NCBI GenBank assembly: GCA_028818855.1
Contig: JAPPMY010000149.1
Span: forward strand, 1 to 64,000
DNA length: 64,000 bases
From: Rhodospirillales bacterium
Lineage (GTDB): Bacteria > Pseudomonadota > Alphaproteobacteria > UBA828
Reading direction: 5' to 3'
Shown one piece after another: positions 27,011-35,604 of this stretch; the stretch's first letter is position 1, and each line of letters opens with the position of its first letter. The position numbers were made by a program, and so were the translations under genes. The notes under the pieces are model-generated. The model was not told the DNA's origin and did no database searches. It saw only the letters and a list, made by a program, of their open reading frames with translations.

Positions 27011-28051
27011 ATGAACTCGGGAAGCCTGAACCTCTCCCGGTCCATGCGGAGGGCCTACCGGGACTGGAACGTCAACAGCCGCGTGGCGCGCCTGAACAAT
27101 TGGGTGGACAGGAGTCGAGAGGGCCAACCCGGCAGCCGTTCGTATGACCACACCGAGACGGTGAACGATTACTATGATTTGTGTAACGAACTCATGCAAT
27201 TCGGGTGGAACGAGTCCCTGCATTTTGCGCCATTGACGCCGGAAGAGACGCTCGAAGAGGCGATCGTCAGGCACCAGCGCCTGATGATCGAACGGTTGAG
27301 ACTGCAAGAGGGGATGAGGATCGTTGACATCGGCTGTGGCGTGGGCGGTCCCATGCGACGGGTCGCCAGAGAGTCCGGCGCGAACGTTGTCTGCCTCAAC
27401 AACAACAGACAGCAGCTCGACGAGGCCAGGCGGAGGAATCTCGAGGCGGGGCTCGACCACAAGGCGGAGTACATTCGATGCAGCTTCATGGATATGAGCG
27501 CCATCGAAGCCGACTCGTTCGATGCGGGTTATGCGATCGAGTCCACCTGCCACGCGCCTGACAAGGAACGCGCCTTTGCAGAGATCTTTCGCGTGCTGAA
27601 GCCGGGAGCGCTGTTCTGGGGCCAGGAGATGTGCATGACGGAAACGTTCGACCCGGACGACAGCCGTCACCGCGCAATCAAGGACGCGTTGATGCTGGGA
27701 ATAGCGCTGAACGACATCGCAACGTTCTCGGAGGTGAATCGGGCGCTCGAGTCCGTCGGATTCGACGTCATCGAAGCGATGAACAGGGACGTCAAGGACG
27801 GTCCGAGTACGCCTTGGTACCAGCCCATGGAAGGACAGAGCGGCACGTTGCGCAATGCGTTTCGCAGGACACCATTGGGTCGCAAGGCGATAATGGCAGG
27901 CCTGCGCCTGGCCGAGACTGTCAAACTCTTTCCCCAGGGTTCGGCAGCCGTTGTCCGCTTCATGGATAGAACGGCCGAGGCATATGTCGCGGGGGGAAAG
28001 ACGGGAATATTTTCACCGCTTTACTGCTTCCTGGCCCGCAAGCCCGGTTGA
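27011..28051 (+). CDS. Sterol C-24 methyltransferase (Erg6/SMT)-like SAM-dependent methyltransferase with C-terminal SMT domain
   Basis: HTETVNDYYDLCNELMQFGWNESLHFAP...MRIVDIGCGVGGPMRRVARESGANVVCLNNNRQQLDEARRRNLEAGL...YAIESTCHAPDKERAFAEIFRVLKPG...HRAIKDALMLGIALND...PWYQPMEG...RRTPLGRKAIMAGLRLAETVKLFPQGSAAVVRFMDRTAEAYVAGGKTGIFSPLYCFLARKP; recalls yeast Erg6 across the full length. Confidence 0.9.
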   Translation: MNSGSLNLSRSMRRAYRDWNVNSRVARLNNWVDRSREGQPGSRSYDHTETVNDYYDLCNELMQFGWNESLHFAPLTPEETLEEAIVRHQRLMIERLRLQEGMRIVDIGCGVGGPMRRVARESGANVVCLNNNRQQLDEARRRNLEAGLDHKAEYIRCSFMDMSAIEADSFDAGYAIESTCHAPDKERAFAEIFRVLKPGALFWGQEMCMTETFDPDDSRHRAIKDALMLGIALNDIATFSEVNRALESVGFDVIEAMNRDVKDGPSTPWYQPMEGQSGTLRNAFRRTPLGRKAIMAGLRLAETVKLFPQGSAAVVRFMDRTAEAYVAGGKTGIFSPLYCFLARKPG

Positions 28052-28767
28052 GCCGGGGAACTGCACGGTCAATCCGAATATCGGGTGCGGAAAAGAGACC
28101 CCACTGTGCAGCGCGTTGTTTATGAACGCGTATATGAAACTTGCTTGAACTTGTTTGTCGTTGCGAGAGGGTCCTTGGCCGCAACGCACAGTGGCCGACA
28201 AGCGGCGTGAGCCGGATTGCGTCCCGGGCACACACGCATATCGGGACGACAGGCGCTTCGTCGGCTCGGGCAGCGAGGCCGAATTCACGATCGCGCCGGG
28301 GAGTCGGCGCCCTGGTCTTGGCCAAGGGGGGAGCCCATCGCCCGGAGGCATGAGAATGTCGGTCGCACCAAGCGCCGGAGTCGTGATTGCCGACGTCACG
28401 TGCCGATGGCTCGCTCGAGCACGCCGATCTCGGCCGACACCGCCTTGTTGCCCAGCCCGTGGGCGAAGCGTAGACTCATGCTGCAGAGATCGGACTTGGA
28501 GCGCGCCGCACGGTGAGGATCGACCAGACCCTCCGTAAACGACCGTTGCTAATCCCCTGAAACCACGGTTGCCAGCGGACAGCCAGTACCGCGTGCCGTC
28601 GAAAAGTCCTTCAAAGTCCGACTCGGAGGACTACATTACAATGAACCTTGCTTCAGCGACGGATAACGGCTTGCCGCGCGTGTCTGCCCGTCGGCAAACC
28701 CTCATTCGACGCCGATGCCGCAGGATGACCGTTCGGACGTGCCGGGTGACCTGGGCGCAAGGAGGCC

Positions 28768-30777
28768 ATGGTTGACATGACTGTGACGGCCGCGCAGCTG
28801 TCGTTGCCCGAAGAGCTTGTCCTCATGCTCCTCAACGAGGAAACCGGGTACTTTCATCAGGTCCAGGGCTGGGAGCTGAACTGCGCCTTCGTCGGCGCAG
28901 TGCTTGCGGAGCTCTCTCTCCTCGAGCGCATCGACACGGACATGGACTCGCTGCTCGTTGTGGACCGGACGGAAACGGGCAACCCCATTCTCGATCCCAT
29001 CTTGACGCAAATCGCGGACGAACCGGAGCAGCGAAACGCGCAATTCTGGATTGAACGGCTCGCCGGACAGGCGGAGTCCGTCATCGATTCGACTCTGGAT
29101 CACCTGGTCCATCTGAAAATCCTGAGGCACCACGACGGTGACTTCTGGACGCTGGCTCCTGTTCAATACGACGGCTCCACGGAGGAGACTCCGCATGAGT
29201 TCATCAAAGCACGTATCAGCAAGTTCATCTATTCCAGCGTAATTCCTGATCCGCGGGACATGATCATCATTTGCCTCGTCAACACGTGCGACGTCTGGCG
29301 CTTCATATTCGAGCTGGATGACGAGGCCGAAGAACGCATCAAGTTTATCTGCAAAATGGACTTGATAGGACGTTCGATAGCTGCAGCGGTCGAGCACACC
29401 GTCGCCAGCCCATTGCTTCGGCGATCCTCCTTGAACAAACAGATACCGACGGTCTCGCTAGGTCGGCTGCTGCTCAATCCACACTTGCGCAAGGGCAACA
29501 TTCCGGCGGTCTTTGCGGACCTGGCAAAGCAATATGGTCCGGTGTTCCAGATCTGCCCGCCGTTCAAGAGACCCATGATCTTCCTCGCCAGCTCACAGAC
29601 GAACCACTGGGTGCAGAGGCACGGGCGGCTGCACCTGAGAGCCAGTGACTATTTTTCCGGCTTCGAAAAAATCTATGGTGCCCATGGCGTACTGCCTTCC
29701 CTGGACGGCGGCGACCATTTCCGGCTACGGAAGGCCATGTCTCCAGCGTTTTCTCGCGACAGGCTGGAAGGGCAGATGGACCAAGTCTACCACCAGGTCC
29801 GAAAGAATCTGTCGAGTTGGAAGGTTGAGGATTCCTATTCTGCAAGGCGATTGTGCCGGCTCATGGTCAATGCGCAACTTTCGTCGCTGTTCTTGGGCGT
29901 TGATTCGCAAGATATCATAGACGATCTCATCGCCTTCAAGGAACGAGCGCTCATCACGCACATTATGGAGGCCCTGCCCAAGTTCATGCTGAATACCCCG
30001 GGCATGAAGCGGCGGTCAAAAGTCGTCGATACATTGTTGCAACGGGTGCAGAGTTCCCACACGCCTGCCCAGCGGGCCGGTTGCCCGCGGGACCTGGCCG
30101 ATGACTGGTTGAGCCTGCACGCAAGCGATCCACAGTTGGTGCCGGAGGCGAACCTGCGTTTTGCTCTGTCTGCGGCGCTGGTGGCCAGTGTATACCTCGG
30201 CGATGCGCTGAACTTCGCGATTTACGCCATGGCCTCGCAGCCCTCGCTCTACGAGAAACTTAGGAGTGAGGCCGATGCCCTCTTCGACAACGGCGATCCC
30301 CTTGGTGCCGACTTCACCCCGGACGCGATCGACGTCACGCATCGCTTCCTGATGGAGTGCCTGCGCCTGTACCCGATCGTCCCGATGTCCATGCGGGACG
30401 TGATGAACACGTGCGTGGTCGAGGGCCACGAACTGCCGGTCGGGTCGCGGCTCCACATTGCCCAGACGGCCGCGCATTACATGGAGGAAGACTTCCCCGA
30501 TCCCTACACGTTCGATATCGACCGCTATCTGCCTCCCCGTAACGAGCACCGCAGTCATGGCTACGCGCCGTACGGGTTGGGCACGCACAGGTGCCTCGGT
30601 TCCAACTGGTTGAATCTGCAGTTGGCCGTCAACATACTGATGATCGCGCACCACTTCACGATCGAGGTGCATCCCACCAATTATAAGTTACGGTTCAGCC
30701 CGCTTCCGTCGATGAAGCCGAGCAAGAAGCTGAAGTACCGCATCGCCGAGCAGAGACACGAACTGCCCGTCCACTAG
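28768..30777 (+). CDS. GPP34 (GOLPH3/Vps74-like) domain - cytochrome P450 fusion protein
   Basis: N-terminus LSLPEELVLMLLNEETGYFHQ...AFVGAVLAELSLLERIDTDMDSLLVVDRTETGNPILDPILTQIADE...WIERLAGQ...LVHLKILRHHDGDF (GPP34); C-terminus P450 with ExxR (MECLRLYP), heme loop YAPYGLGTHRCLGSNW. Confidence 0.9.
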   Translation: MVDMTVTAAQLSLPEELVLMLLNEETGYFHQVQGWELNCAFVGAVLAELSLLERIDTDMDSLLVVDRTETGNPILDPILTQIADEPEQRNAQFWIERLAGQAESVIDSTLDHLVHLKILRHHDGDFWTLAPVQYDGSTEETPHEFIKARISKFIYSSVIPDPRDMIIICLVNTCDVWRFIFELDDEAEERIKFICKMDLIGRSIAAAVEHTVASPLLRRSSLNKQIPTVSLGRLLLNPHLRKGNIPAVFADLAKQYGPVFQICPPFKRPMIFLASSQTNHWVQRHGRLHLRASDYFSGFEKIYGAHGVLPSLDGGDHFRLRKAMSPAFSRDRLEGQMDQVYHQVRKNLSSWKVEDSYSARRLCRLMVNAQLSSLFLGVDSQDIIDDLIAFKERALITHIMEALPKFMLNTPGMKRRSKVVDTLLQRVQSSHTPAQRAGCPRDLADDWLSLHASDPQLVPEANLRFALSAALVASVYLGDALNFAIYAMASQPSLYEKLRSEADALFDNGDPLGADFTPDAIDVTHRFLMECLRLYPIVPMSMRDVMNTCVVEGHELPVGSRLHIAQTAAHYMEEDFPDPYTFDIDRYLPPRNEHRSHGYAPYGLGTHRCLGSNWLNLQLAVNILMIAHHFTIEVHPTNYKLRFSPLPSMKPSKKLKYRIAEQRHELPVH

Positions 30778-30892: not shown

Positions 30893-31708
30893 CTATCGCG
30901 TGCGTTTCAGCGCCGTCTTGGTGAAGTCGCCCTCGTCGAGGTCGGTTCCGAACTCGTAGTCCGTCCAGTTCAGCACGGTGCTCTTTCCCGTGAGATGGTT
31001 CGTCATCTCCACCGTGCCTGCCCGCCAGAAGCGGTCGAGATATTGCGCGAACTCGTCGACCACCATCGTCTTGAGATGCTCGTCCCTGCGGTCGAAGTAC
31101 TGGACCTGAATGGTGCGAAGCTCCTCCTGGTCGAGCCAGACCAGCTGTCGCGAGTACCCTGAATCCTCGCTGAGGGGCACGCGTTCCAGAACCGTGCACT
31201 GGAAATCGCCGCAGGCCTCGTCGCGCAGGTAGCGGTGCGTGTATTTCTCGACTTCGACGGCGCTCAGGTCCTCGTACGAGAACTCGCTGCCCATGAAGGA
31301 CCCGGACTGCTTCGACGAGCTGATGCGCTTGACCCGCTTCAGGGCGGGCAGGTAGAGCCACTGGTCGTCCGGCTCGTTCTTGTGGGCGTGGACGAGAAAG
31401 GCGGTGCCCTTGACGTCGCGCGGGCGGTCGAACACGAACATGGTGCGATCGCCGTCTCCCTCGACTTCGATGACCTTGAGGCGGACTTCGCGCGTGCTCT
31501 CCTGCCCCCGCTTGTTGCGCAGGGTCATCTTGAGGTTTGCGGTGAGGTTGCCGTAGCCCTTCTGGCGTTCGCGGGCGTCCGTCGCGATCCTGAGCCCGGC
31601 CTCCTCGGCGCTCTCCGCGAGGACGGCCGACGGCCCGCCGGCCCAGACGAGAGCGGCAAGAACGATCGCGGACACTGCAAGCATTGGGTGGGGGAGAGCG
31701 ACGCGCAT
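30893..31708 (-). CDS. Outer membrane lipoprotein-sorting protein (LolA-like)
   Basis: Signal peptide; YGNLTANLKMTLRNKRGQESTREVRLKVIEVEGDGDRTMFVFDRPRDVKGTAFLVHAHKNEPDDQWLYLPALKRVKRISSSKQSGSFMGSEFSYEDLS: typical of this family. Confidence 0.9.
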   Translation of the reverse strand: MRVALPHPMLAVSAIVLAALVWAGGPSAVLAESAEEAGLRIATDARERQKGYGNLTANLKMTLRNKRGQESTREVRLKVIEVEGDGDRTMFVFDRPRDVKGTAFLVHAHKNEPDDQWLYLPALKRVKRISSSKQSGSFMGSEFSYEDLSAVEVEKYTHRYLRDEACGDFQCTVLERVPLSEDSGYSRQLVWLDQEELRTIQVQYFDRRDEHLKTMVVDEFAQYLDRFWRAGTVEMTNHLTGKSTVLNWTDYEFGTDLDEGDFTKTALKRTR

Positions 31709-31762: not shown

Positions 31763-33052
31763 TCAGAAGTTGTAGTCCAGGTTCACCCCGATGAAACTGT
31801 CGCGCCGCACATCATACATGGCATCGTCCTCATCGATCCCGACATAGGCGTAGCTCTGCACATGCAGGGACCAGCTATCCGAAAGGCGGCGCTTGAATTC
31901 GGCGTTCAGCACGCGGCTGCTGTAGTCCAGGGATTCCAGAACGCTGAGCGTGAATTCGGTGCTCTGTTCGTCGTTCAGCCCCAGACGCGCGGCAAGCAGC
32001 ACGTCGTTCTCGAACGCGTTGGTCGCCCATCGGCCGCGCCCGTCGCGGGCCCATTCGCCGATCAGGCTGAGATCGGCGTCCGAATCCCACACGGCGTAGA
32101 TTGTGTATTCGGCGCCTGCGACGAAGGCCGCGTAGTCTTCCTCTTCGTACTGCAGGAACCGGTCGAGCCGGCGGTTCTGCGCGCCGGCGCGGTGAATGGC
32201 TTCCAGCTTGAGAAGCCAAGGGCCCGTGGTGAGCTGGGTATCCAGGCCGAGCTGGGTGATCTGCTCGTAGTAGGGCGCCAGAACGAGTTCGGTGCCGGCC
32301 AGGGTCGGCAGAAGGGTGGGCTCGCGGCTCGTGCCGTCGAACACGCTGAGCCCGATGTCGACCGGCCCGAAGCTGCCGGTGTAACGGGCGGCAAGATCGA
32401 GATGCCACTCTCCCGCCGAGGACTCGTACGAGGTCAGGTCGCGGTCCACGACAGGCCCGGGACGCAGGCGGCCGTGGCGGCCCGGAAAGGTGCGCTCCCG
32501 GTGCCCGGTCAGCCCGAACAGCTCAAGCGCCCCCCAGTCCCCCGACCACGTGAGGTGGACCATCGGCTGGCCCATCTTGGTCTTCTCGTCCGGGTCTTCC
32601 ACGAGGTCCGTCTGGTTGACGATATCGACCAGGGGGCGCGATTCGACGACCCCCCAGAACACGCGATCGACGCCCAGGCGCAGCTCCCATTCGTCGTCGC
32701 CGATATCGCCGTAGAGGAGAAGGAAAGCCTCACGGAGGTCGGCGTGGGTGCGGTCCGGATCCCCGGCGTCGTATCGGAGGAAGGGCGTTATCGTGATGCT
32801 CCTGCCCTCATTGTCCTCCATGTAGACCGTCGCCTCCGCAGCGAAGCCGCTCGCGTGGGAGCGCTGGTCGGGATGCGCGGCCGTCTCGGGATAGACCCGC
32901 GTTTCGGAGGAAAGACGGCCAGTAACCTCCACGAATTCCACGAACCCGTCGTCGGCACGCGCGCCGGTCGCCATCGGTACCGAAATCAGCAGAGACAAGA
33001 GCGCCGCGAGAAGGGTGAGACGCGCCGCACCGATTTGCCCGAGGAGCTTCAC
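31763..33052 (-). CDS. Predicted outer-membrane beta-barrel protein (porin-like)
   Basis: Signal peptide (LTLLAALLSLLISVPMATGARA), alternating amphipathic strands, C-terminal ...GVNLDYNF ending in aromatic F. Start uncertain (GTG 33052 or TTG 33094). Confidence 0.75.
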   Translation of the reverse strand: MKLLGQIGAARLTLLAALLSLLISVPMATGARADDGFVEFVEVTGRLSSETRVYPETAAHPDQRSHASGFAAEATVYMEDNEGRSITITPFLRYDAGDPDRTHADLREAFLLLYGDIGDDEWELRLGVDRVFWGVVESRPLVDIVNQTDLVEDPDEKTKMGQPMVHLTWSGDWGALELFGLTGHRERTFPGRHGRLRPGPVVDRDLTSYESSAGEWHLDLAARYTGSFGPVDIGLSVFDGTSREPTLLPTLAGTELVLAPYYEQITQLGLDTQLTTGPWLLKLEAIHRAGAQNRRLDRFLQYEEEDYAAFVAGAEYTIYAVWDSDADLSLIGEWARDGRGRWATNAFENDVLLAARLGLNDEQSTEFTLSVLESLDYSSRVLNAEFKRRLSDSWSLHVQSYAYVGIDEDDAMYDVRRDSFIGVNLDYNF

Positions 33053-33090: not shown

Positions 33091-35418
33091 TCAAGTCGCC
33101 TCCCCGCCCCGTCTCCTGAGCCGCTCGATACTGAACCGCTCGAGCACCATGAGCAGCGGCGGCAGGAACAGGAAATCCGCCAGCAGGGCGATGATGACCG
33201 TAATGCCCACGAGCAGCCCGAGCGCCTGGTTGGTCGCCATCCCCGACGCCCCGAACACCAGGAAGCCCAGCGCGAACACCGCGGTCGTCGCCAGCAGCGC
33301 CTTGCCCACGGTGCGGAACGCGGTCTGAACGGAGTCCGCCGCCGACTGCCCGCTCTTTCGGGCCCTGATGTACTTGGTCATGAAGTGGATCGTGTCGTCC
33401 ACGACGATGCCGAAGGCGATGGCGGTGACCACGGCCGCGGCGTTTCCGACCGCTCCCACGGCATAGCCCCACAGGCCCAGCGCCATGGCGGCCGGGATGA
33501 AGTTGGGAATCAGGCTGATGAGCCCGAGACGCAGGCTCCTGAAGATGAACACCAGCAGCAGGGAGACGATGCCCATCGCCGTGATGGTGCCGATCAGCAT
33601 GTTCTTGATGTTCTTCTGAATCGAATGGGCGCCGACGATCGAGACGCCGGCGGCCGCGGTTTCGAGACCCGGGGCATTCTGGCGCAGCCAGGCCTGCGCG
33701 CGGTCGTCGAGCGCGATCTTCTCGTTGGTGGACAGGCTCGACAGCACGACCGTCATGCGCGTGGACGAGCGTTCCACGTCGATGAGATTGTTCAGGTCGA
33801 GCCCAACCGGCAAAGAGAACTCGTAGAGCAGCAGATACTGCGCCGCCAGATCGGAGTTGTCGGGGATACTGTAGAACGCCGGATCGTCGCCGTTCAGGTT
33901 CTTGTTCAGGCGCTTCATGATGTCGGAGATGGCGAAGACGTGAGCGACCTCCGGCTGCGCCCGATACCACTCCGCGAACGCGTCCACCCGGCTCAGGTAC
34001 TCGACATCGGTGACGCCGCCCTCCTGCCCCGCGTCGAGAGAGTACTCGAAGGCTTCGACGCCGGTGAAGTTCTCGCTGATGAAATCCGTCGATTGCCGGA
34101 ACTGGTAGCTCTCGCCGAGAAGCTCGAGCCAGTTTTCCTTGAGCTCGATCCGCGCAATGCCGGCCATGAGCGCGACGGTCAGAACGCCGAAGGAGCACAG
34201 AAGGAGCATGCGGCGGGAGACGACGAACCGCCCGAGACGGTCGAAATAATCCACCTTCCCTTCGCGCGCAGGCCGGACGCGCATGGGCAGGTAGGAGAGG
34301 ACCGCCGGCAGGAACGTTACCGCGAAGAAGAACGCGAACAGCGAGCCGAAGGCCACCATGTTGCCCATGACCTGGAACGGCGGCATCTCCGAGAAGTTCA
34401 GGCTGAGGAACCCGATTGCCGTCGTGATCGACGTGAGGAAAACAGGCCATATGTTCAGCTCCAGGGAATGAATCGCCGCCTGTTTGCGGTCCATTCCCTC
34501 GCGCAAGCCCGCCAGCATCGCTTCTATGATGTGGACGGAATGCGCGACAGCGATCGCCATCAAGACGAATATGGCGGCAGCGCTCTCGCCGAACAGCGTC
34601 ATGCCGGTCCAGCCCACGAAGCCGGCCGAAGCGATGATGACACCAACGATCATCAGGACGATCGCAACGGTTCCCCAGATGGAGCGCAGCATCAGCACGG
34701 CAACCAGCAGCATGACCCCGAGCGCGATGGGTCCGAGGAGTTCGAACTCCTCGTTCATTGCGTCGCCCATGGCACGATCCAGGGGAAGCTCGCCGGTTAT
34801 GTGGTAGTCGATGGTCGAATACTTCTCCCCCGCCTCGGCTGCGGTGCCGTAGAGGTAGTCGACGACCTCCATCTTGGCCGCCTGTCGGACGTCCCGGCCC
34901 TCGGGAAGCGCGATGCTGACCACCAGCCCGGCCACGCGGCCATCCCGGGAAACGAAGCGCCCGTCAACCTCTTCCGTCGCGTGCGCGATCGTCTCGATGC
35001 GTGCGATGTCGTCGTCGGAGAGAGAGGCGGCGTCGTCGATGAGCGGCTCGACGATCAGCTCGTCCTCGAAGGCCTCGCTGTGCGAGTAATTCGCGATGGA
35101 ATCGACGCGGGTAACGTAGGGCGTCAGCCAGAGCTGCTCGGTCAACTCCTCGATGGCAATGAGCGCTTCCTGCGTGAAGATGGTGCCGCTCTGGGGTGCC
35201 ACCGCAATAAGCGCGGTGTCGGAGATCGCGTAGGTCTCTTCCAGGTGGTCGAGCGCGACAATGCGCGGATCATCCTTCTCGAAGTGATTACGAACATCGA
35301 CGTCAACAGATACCAGGTTCTGGGCGCCCGCGGCGAGGGCCAGCATGACAAGCAGAGAGAGCAAAATCGTCAGCCATCGGCGCCTCATGATGTGGGCGAT
35401 GCAGGTTTCTAAATTCAT
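33091..35418 (-). CDS. RND superfamily exporter (MMPL/HpnN-like, COG1033-type)
   Basis: ~776 aa, duplicated 6-TM architecture with large periplasmic loops; AFGIVVDDTIHFMTKYIRARKSG and LMAIAVAHSVHIIEAMLAGLREG motifs. Confidence 0.92.
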   Translation of the reverse strand: MNLETCIAHIMRRRWLTILLSLLVMLALAAGAQNLVSVDVDVRNHFEKDDPRIVALDHLEETYAISDTALIAVAPQSGTIFTQEALIAIEELTEQLWLTPYVTRVDSIANYSHSEAFEDELIVEPLIDDAASLSDDDIARIETIAHATEEVDGRFVSRDGRVAGLVVSIALPEGRDVRQAAKMEVVDYLYGTAAEAGEKYSTIDYHITGELPLDRAMGDAMNEEFELLGPIALGVMLLVAVLMLRSIWGTVAIVLMIVGVIIASAGFVGWTGMTLFGESAAAIFVLMAIAVAHSVHIIEAMLAGLREGMDRKQAAIHSLELNIWPVFLTSITTAIGFLSLNFSEMPPFQVMGNMVAFGSLFAFFFAVTFLPAVLSYLPMRVRPAREGKVDYFDRLGRFVVSRRMLLLCSFGVLTVALMAGIARIELKENWLELLGESYQFRQSTDFISENFTGVEAFEYSLDAGQEGGVTDVEYLSRVDAFAEWYRAQPEVAHVFAISDIMKRLNKNLNGDDPAFYSIPDNSDLAAQYLLLYEFSLPVGLDLNNLIDVERSSTRMTVVLSSLSTNEKIALDDRAQAWLRQNAPGLETAAAGVSIVGAHSIQKNIKNMLIGTITAMGIVSLLLVFIFRSLRLGLISLIPNFIPAAMALGLWGYAVGAVGNAAAVVTAIAFGIVVDDTIHFMTKYIRARKSGQSAADSVQTAFRTVGKALLATTAVFALGFLVFGASGMATNQALGLLVGITVIIALLADFLFLPPLLMVLERFSIERLRRRGGEAT

Positions 35419-35604
35419 GGCGGCACGCCGTCTCGTGAATAGACTTCGGGCGACGAAGTCCGGTTTCGGGAGCGACTCGCCATTTAAGTATCCCAATCCG
35501 CCTCCCACTCGTCCATCACTCTTTGGGCCGTGTACGCAAGGGTTGCTGCATGGCCAGGGCAAGTGCCAGGTGGCGCTGACACGGAGCGACGAAGAGAGTC
35601 CTCC

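Follow-up and report, generated by a model that had tools for sequence, protein, structure and literature searches.

The PI4P-binding residues of the Golgi protein GOLPH3 are R90, R171, N172 and R174 (PMC12494035), and its acidic face holds basic membrane-proximal tails (PMC8421267, PMC12494035). In bacteria, the stand-alone GOLPH3-like protein SCO4440 of Streptomyces has been tied to a peptidoglycan phenotype (PMC12402492). With respect to sterols, gene clusters of the type ERG24-CYP51-LSS have been described in symbionts of the sponge Ircinia (PMC9531527), and sterol methyltransferases (SMTs) of sponge symbionts make 24-isopropyl sterols (PMC10070321). Neither a GPP34 nor a Rieske gene appears in the main text of the first of these two sterol papers, nor a P450, Rieske or GPP34 gene in that of the second. 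Searches of the openly accessible journal literature on GPP34 together with P450, on bacterial GOLPH3 and on sponge sterol genes returned no published account of a GPP34-P450 fusion. Within this scope, the literature agrees with the original prediction that the architecture had not been described before.

Such a fusion is encoded in the 64,000-nucleotide stretch of DNA that we analysed (hereafter the window), which belongs to an alphaproteobacterial genome assembled into 294 contigs, 4.78 Mb in all, with 96.8% completeness and 6.9% contamination. This genome contains three other GPP34 genes, each of them stand-alone. The window contig looks chromosomal, since housekeeping genes (leuS and its neighbours) lie upstream. 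The fusion gene is found in an island of low G+C content at about 27.0-35.6 kb (genes at 0.58-0.65 versus a window mean of 0.694), and its GC3 is 0.76 versus 0.95 for leuS; this composition is compatible with horizontal gain. We propose, with a probability of roughly 0.6, that the fused GPP34-P450 belongs to a gene set with which host-associated marine bacteria remodel sterols. The features of the locus are as follows.

27011..28051, plus strand: sterol methyltransferase (Erg6-like, PF08498 C-terminal domain), 346 aa, a conserved neighbour
28760..28765, plus strand: ribosome-binding site AGGAGG, directly 5' of the fusion ATG (sequence)
28768..30777, plus strand: GPP34-P450 fusion gene, 669 aa, in a single frame (Pfam; 86 full-length fusions)
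28804..29397, plus strand: GPP34 (GOLPH3/Vps74-fold) domain, residues 13-210, acidic and without the conserved PI4P residues (Pfam, fold, alignment)
29482..30732, plus strand: cytochrome P450 domain, residues 239-655 (Pfam; fold match)
30184..30204, plus strand: altered I-helix, with the motif A-S-V-Y-L-G-D at residues 473-479 and one residue fewer than the unfused relatives have (alignment)
30355..30366, plus strand: ExxR motif, E530-R533 (alignment)
30571..30600, plus strand: heme-binding loop YGLGTHRCLG, residues 602-611, with Cys609 (alignment)
30893..31708, minus strand: LolA-like periplasmic carrier (PF17131), a conserved neighbour in proteobacterial loci
31763..33040, minus strand: predicted outer-membrane protein, presumably of barrel type, no Pfam match, about 424 aa in relatives, start approximate (ORF clustering)
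33091..35562, minus strand: MMPL/RND transporter (PF03176, 136 bits) with a match to the sterol-sensing domain (PF12349, 29.6 bits)

The two families that had been read from the sequence, GPP34 and P450, are both matched on this one frame well above their Pfam cut-offs, PF05719 at 107.2 bits (cut-off 29.1) and PF00067 at 112.1 bits (cut-off 22.8), and both folds were recovered by structure modelling. The boundaries first given for GPP34 (residues of about 8-215) were accurate, and the ExxR (MECLR, E530-R533) and heme-loop (Cys609) motifs are as first read. The full-length model (pLDDT 84.5, pTM 0.74) matches solved P450s at TM-scores by target of 0.75-0.81, the best named match being 7wzm (TM 0.81), and no transmembrane segment is predicted in the fusion protein. 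In total, 86 full-length fusion frames were read, which are 52-100% identical and of which 80 come from a separate, independent collection of genomes; with these intact frames, a pair of separate genes, a frameshift or an assembly artefact is ruled out. The linker between the two domains is short and has the same length across all 86 fusions. Mean identity is 67% for the GPP34 part and 68% for the P450 part, and this equal conservation argues that the GPP34 domain matters to the function.

The residues C609, E530 and R533 and the heme-loop His are invariant in all 86 fusions. The I-helix, however, reads [AT]-[SA]-x-Y-x-G-D in every one of them, with a one-residue deletion and with Y476, G478 and D479 invariant, whereas the nearest unfused P450s (at 33% identity, including one encoded in the window genome; others at 26-27%) keep A-[AG]-L-D-T-V. 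The acid-alcohol pair, represented by D-T in these relatives, is absent from the fused P450s. In P450s, this I-helix pair for O2 activation is usual in monooxygenases though not universal. Its loss makes ordinary O2 activation doubtful, but active monooxygenases with I-helix variants exist (P450eryF, P450cin), so that an altered chemistry of the fused P450 is not certain. Judging from the alignments, the fused P450 probably binds heme but no longer has the usual proton relay. Among solved P450s, the best profile matches are CYP51s (E 2.5e-48), and CYP46A1 (cholesterol 24-hydroxylase) is also among the matches. The fused P450 differs from these sterol P450s in its low identity, its unusual I-helix and the GPP34 domain in front. 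Membership in CYP51 itself was ruled out by identities of roughly 20-25% in the alignments shown, compared with the customary family level of about 40%.

The N-terminal domain belongs to the same family as GOLPH3 and Vps74 by profile (3kn1, E 2.7e-22), and its AlphaFold model (pLDDT 89.6) matches human GOLPH3 (9qpq, TM 0.76, E 4e-8) and yeast Vps74; beyond the GOLPH3/Vps74 entries, no solved structure matched this model better than E 0.19. Like GOLPH3, the domain is acidic, with a net charge of -22 in the window protein and a range of -12 to -26 across the fusions. It differs in being bacterial, in being linked to a P450 and in the PI4P-binding residues, which are not retained: R90, R171, N172 and R174 of GOLPH3 align with V42, E103, S104 and I106 of the fusion, and none of the 86 fusions has a basic residue in column 103 or 106, while column 42 is V, I, A or T in at least 83. 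SCO4440 is likewise a bacterial GPP34 protein but stands alone, without a P450.

Several other GPP34 fusions came to light in relatives within the class. A locus from a different family of the class joins GPP34 to an MFS transporter (L034, 8334-10295), and three loci combine it with a C-terminal four-helix membrane domain (L048, 7579-8754; L049, 7993-9180; L050, 1129-2361), for which Pfam gives no more than a weak hit to DUF4079, in one locus of the three. Five further loci from several families (L043-L047) encode, C-terminal to GPP34, a domain of about 200 aa that has no Pfam match and contains the motifs WEWRAFW and DNIKxRxxGLxVK. Since GPP34 is also carried by integral membrane proteins, where docking would be redundant, it is not simply a membrane anchor.

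These observations bear on the earlier idea that GPP34 acts as a lipid-docking module, according to which it would directly place an ordinary monooxygenase P450 on a membrane lipid. The GOLPH3 fold speaks for this idea, as do the kinship with sterol P450s of a P450 that yet has no transmembrane anchor, and a conserved aromatic loop (GYFHQVPGW) that could enter the bilayer. What did not hold up is the resemblance at the binding site, where the PI4P residues are swapped for V/E/S/I in a strongly acidic domain; the fusions to integral membrane proteins also argue against docking, and the missing acid-alcohol pair against an ordinary monooxygenase, which leaves this explanation rather doubtful. 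By analogy with the acidic face of GOLPH3, we favour with modest confidence an adaptor role in which the domain would bind the basic tails of putative partners in the membrane; this is at least as likely as lipid docking. Alternatively, the acidic GPP34 could be an intramolecular or redox-docking domain on the basic P450 (net charge +6 in the window protein), with no membrane role. The opposite charges of the two domains and the fixed linker fit such an arrangement, but the MFS and four-helix fusions suggest a more general surface-adaptor role, and we regard it as unlikely.

With regard to sterol remodelling, we surveyed the gene neighbourhood by ORF clustering around 81 non-redundant fusion loci, counting partners within 12 kb. 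At least one partner is found in 78 of the 81 loci, at least two in 67 and at least three in 56, and the partner genes recur across loci in shuffled order. The Rieske oxygenase, which matches both the KshA_C family (PF19298) and KshA structures, is present in 63 loci, followed by MMPL transporters with sterol-sensing-domain matches (50), the SMT (49), an FAD amine-oxidase-type protein (48), the LolA-like carrier (13) and an ERG4/ERG24 reductase (12). The window locus itself contains the SMT, LolA-like, barrel-type and MMPL genes, and orthologues of the Rieske and FAD proteins (59% and 82% identity, respectively) are encoded on other contigs of the window genome. Among 386 genomes of the class, the Sterol_MT_C domain occurs in 11, comprising 7/7 fusion genomes versus 4/379 others (Fisher p 1.4e-12; 2.9e-6 after collapsing to genera, the one step by which kinship was handled). 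Gene context thus supports the anticipated lipid-type substrate of the P450 and specifies it as a sterol; this neighbourhood evidence that the fusion works on sterols is circumstantial. In one genome (G075), the sterol gene set occurs without the fusion P450 and has an IS605-type OrfB/TnpB gene inside it (L158, 11821-13098).

The ERG24-CYP51-LSS clusters (PMC9531527) share with the fusion loci their occurrence in sponge symbiont communities, the involvement of many phyla, horizontal transfer and a nearby SMT. They differ in containing lanosterol synthase and CYP51, whereas most fusion carriers have no gene of the oxidosqualene cyclase (OSC) type. The SMTs that make 24-isopropyl sterols (PMC10070321) resemble the partner described here as bacterial SMTs from sponge metagenomes.

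The partner set in part fits steroid breakdown. If host steroids were degraded for carbon, the Rieske protein would be a KshA-type 9-alpha-hydroxylase, as its KshA_C and structure matches allow, and the P450 would attack the side chain. The methyltransferase does not fit this scheme, however: a sterol C-methyltransferase and an ERG24-type reductase are non-catabolic genes, and CYP125/142 types are not close to the P450 among its best solved matches, which makes catabolism quite improbable. We hold it equally improbable that the fused P450 is a heme or sterol sensor regulating the neighbouring enzymes with no catalysis of its own, since, although the O2-activating residues are gone and the heme ligand is retained, the P450 part is as conserved as the GPP34 part and the newly invariant Y, G and D suggest new chemistry over decay.

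Returning to sterol remodelling, we asked where the sterol could come from by searching 26 fusion genomes for cyclases. About 20 of the 26 have hopene-type matches or none and no OSC-type gene, although incompleteness of metagenome-assembled genomes (MAGs) could conceal cyclases; the single-chromosome genomes L064 and L094 carry the fusion, and an OSC-type gene was not found in them either. Aligned cyclase matches at about 600 bits are hopene-type, and for a few further matches at 570-595 bits the hopene/OSC class is not motif-based. The window genome has a single cyclase, which is hopene-type (motif DVDDTA); no oxidosqualene cyclase was found there, and hence no sign of de novo sterol synthesis. 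In contrast, long OSC-type frames of 1148-1607 aa (about 510 bits, assigned without a motif) are present in 6 of the 26 genomes, and de novo sterols may therefore feed some carriers; this is the size expected for squalene epoxidase-cyclase fusions (PMC7074536). For most of the carriers tested, de novo synthesis is ruled out as the general setting in which the fusion works, and the simplest reading is that the sterol would be imported from the host or from neighbours.

The fusion is scattered across bacteria. Relatives were found at 200 loci when genome contigs were scanned, and the best 80 of these are full-length fusions at 62-100% identity; a same-class sample has the fusion in 7 of 386 genomes, from three families. 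GPP34-containing frames of about 675-750 aa occur in 17 of the 178 genomes from the class to which L064 belongs, fusion status being assigned by length. Carriers are labelled Chloroflexota, Pseudomonadota, Gemmatimonadota, Nitrospirota, Actinomycetota, Verrucomicrobiota, Myxococcota and Latescibacterota (at least eight phyla), labels that come from MAGs and can be wrong, although two of the records, L064 and L094, are single chromosomes. The sole split relative is that of G358 (L041), frameshifted or cut at contig ends, and a 689-aa frame in L035 was rejected as a fusion, being an over-long ORF. No viral contig encoded a relative of the fusion and no plasmid locus covered 80% of the protein, the best ones matching the P450 part only; a phage or plasmid origin is ruled out by these searches.

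The fusion-carrying MAGs apparently come nearly all from sponge projects. Their bin prefixes are of sponge-project style, jk18x being confirmed as Ircinia, and some eight records cannot be traced to a source. The prefixes SB06, MP-bin and Plut presumably also belong to such projects, Plut to one on coral. The prefixes RHO, COS, IRC and APA appear to agree with the hosts of PMC8163846.

On the protein tree of the fusions, the phylum labels require 16 changes versus a minimum of 8, and well-supported branches force at least five changes each for Chloroflexota and Pseudomonadota. Given this excess of label changes, horizontal movement of the fusion between phyla is likely, as judged from the protein sequences. 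One relative (L060, 2010-4022) is 88% identical to the window protein in the GPP34 part and just 63% in the P450 part, which suggests recombination inside the fusion gene, and another locus (L133, 7744-11630) holds a tandem pair of copies, the second truncated by the contig end. A Chloroflexota bin includes a 9.8-kb contig (L054, JAPPJZ010000001.1, coverage 3.9) whose protein is 100% identical to that of the window; it is probably mis-binned.

In the pathway that we envisage, carriers would take up host sterols, moved by the transporter; the methyltransferase would alkylate the sterol side chain, and oxidation or rearrangement of the sterol would fall to the Rieske enzyme and the P450. From its I-helix, the P450 would operate without the ordinary proton-relay route to O2 and would more likely be peroxide-using, of isomerase or lyase type, or substrate-assisted. 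The least sure part concerns GPP34, which may stand in for the membrane anchor that eukaryotic sterol P450s have at their N terminus and might hold the enzyme at the membrane through basic tails of putative partners, in a GOLPH3-like rather than phosphoinositide-dependent manner. More tentatively, GPP34 and P450 may have been fused once in bacteria, the P450 losing ordinary O2 activation and gaining a Y-x-G-D centre for a new step on host sterols, with GPP34 tethering it to membrane partners and the gene being traded among sponge symbiont phyla; we view this fuller scenario as possible but short of probable.

The fusion provides a lead to what bacterial GPP34 proteins do, about which very little is known, and presents GPP34 as a fusion module outside the Golgi. 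Enzymology has a direct target in the P450, whose oxygen-activation site is conserved but non-standard. The gene set may let many sponge symbionts modify host sterols that they do not make themselves, a point relevant to the origin of unusual sponge sterols and of the sterane biomarkers derived from them.
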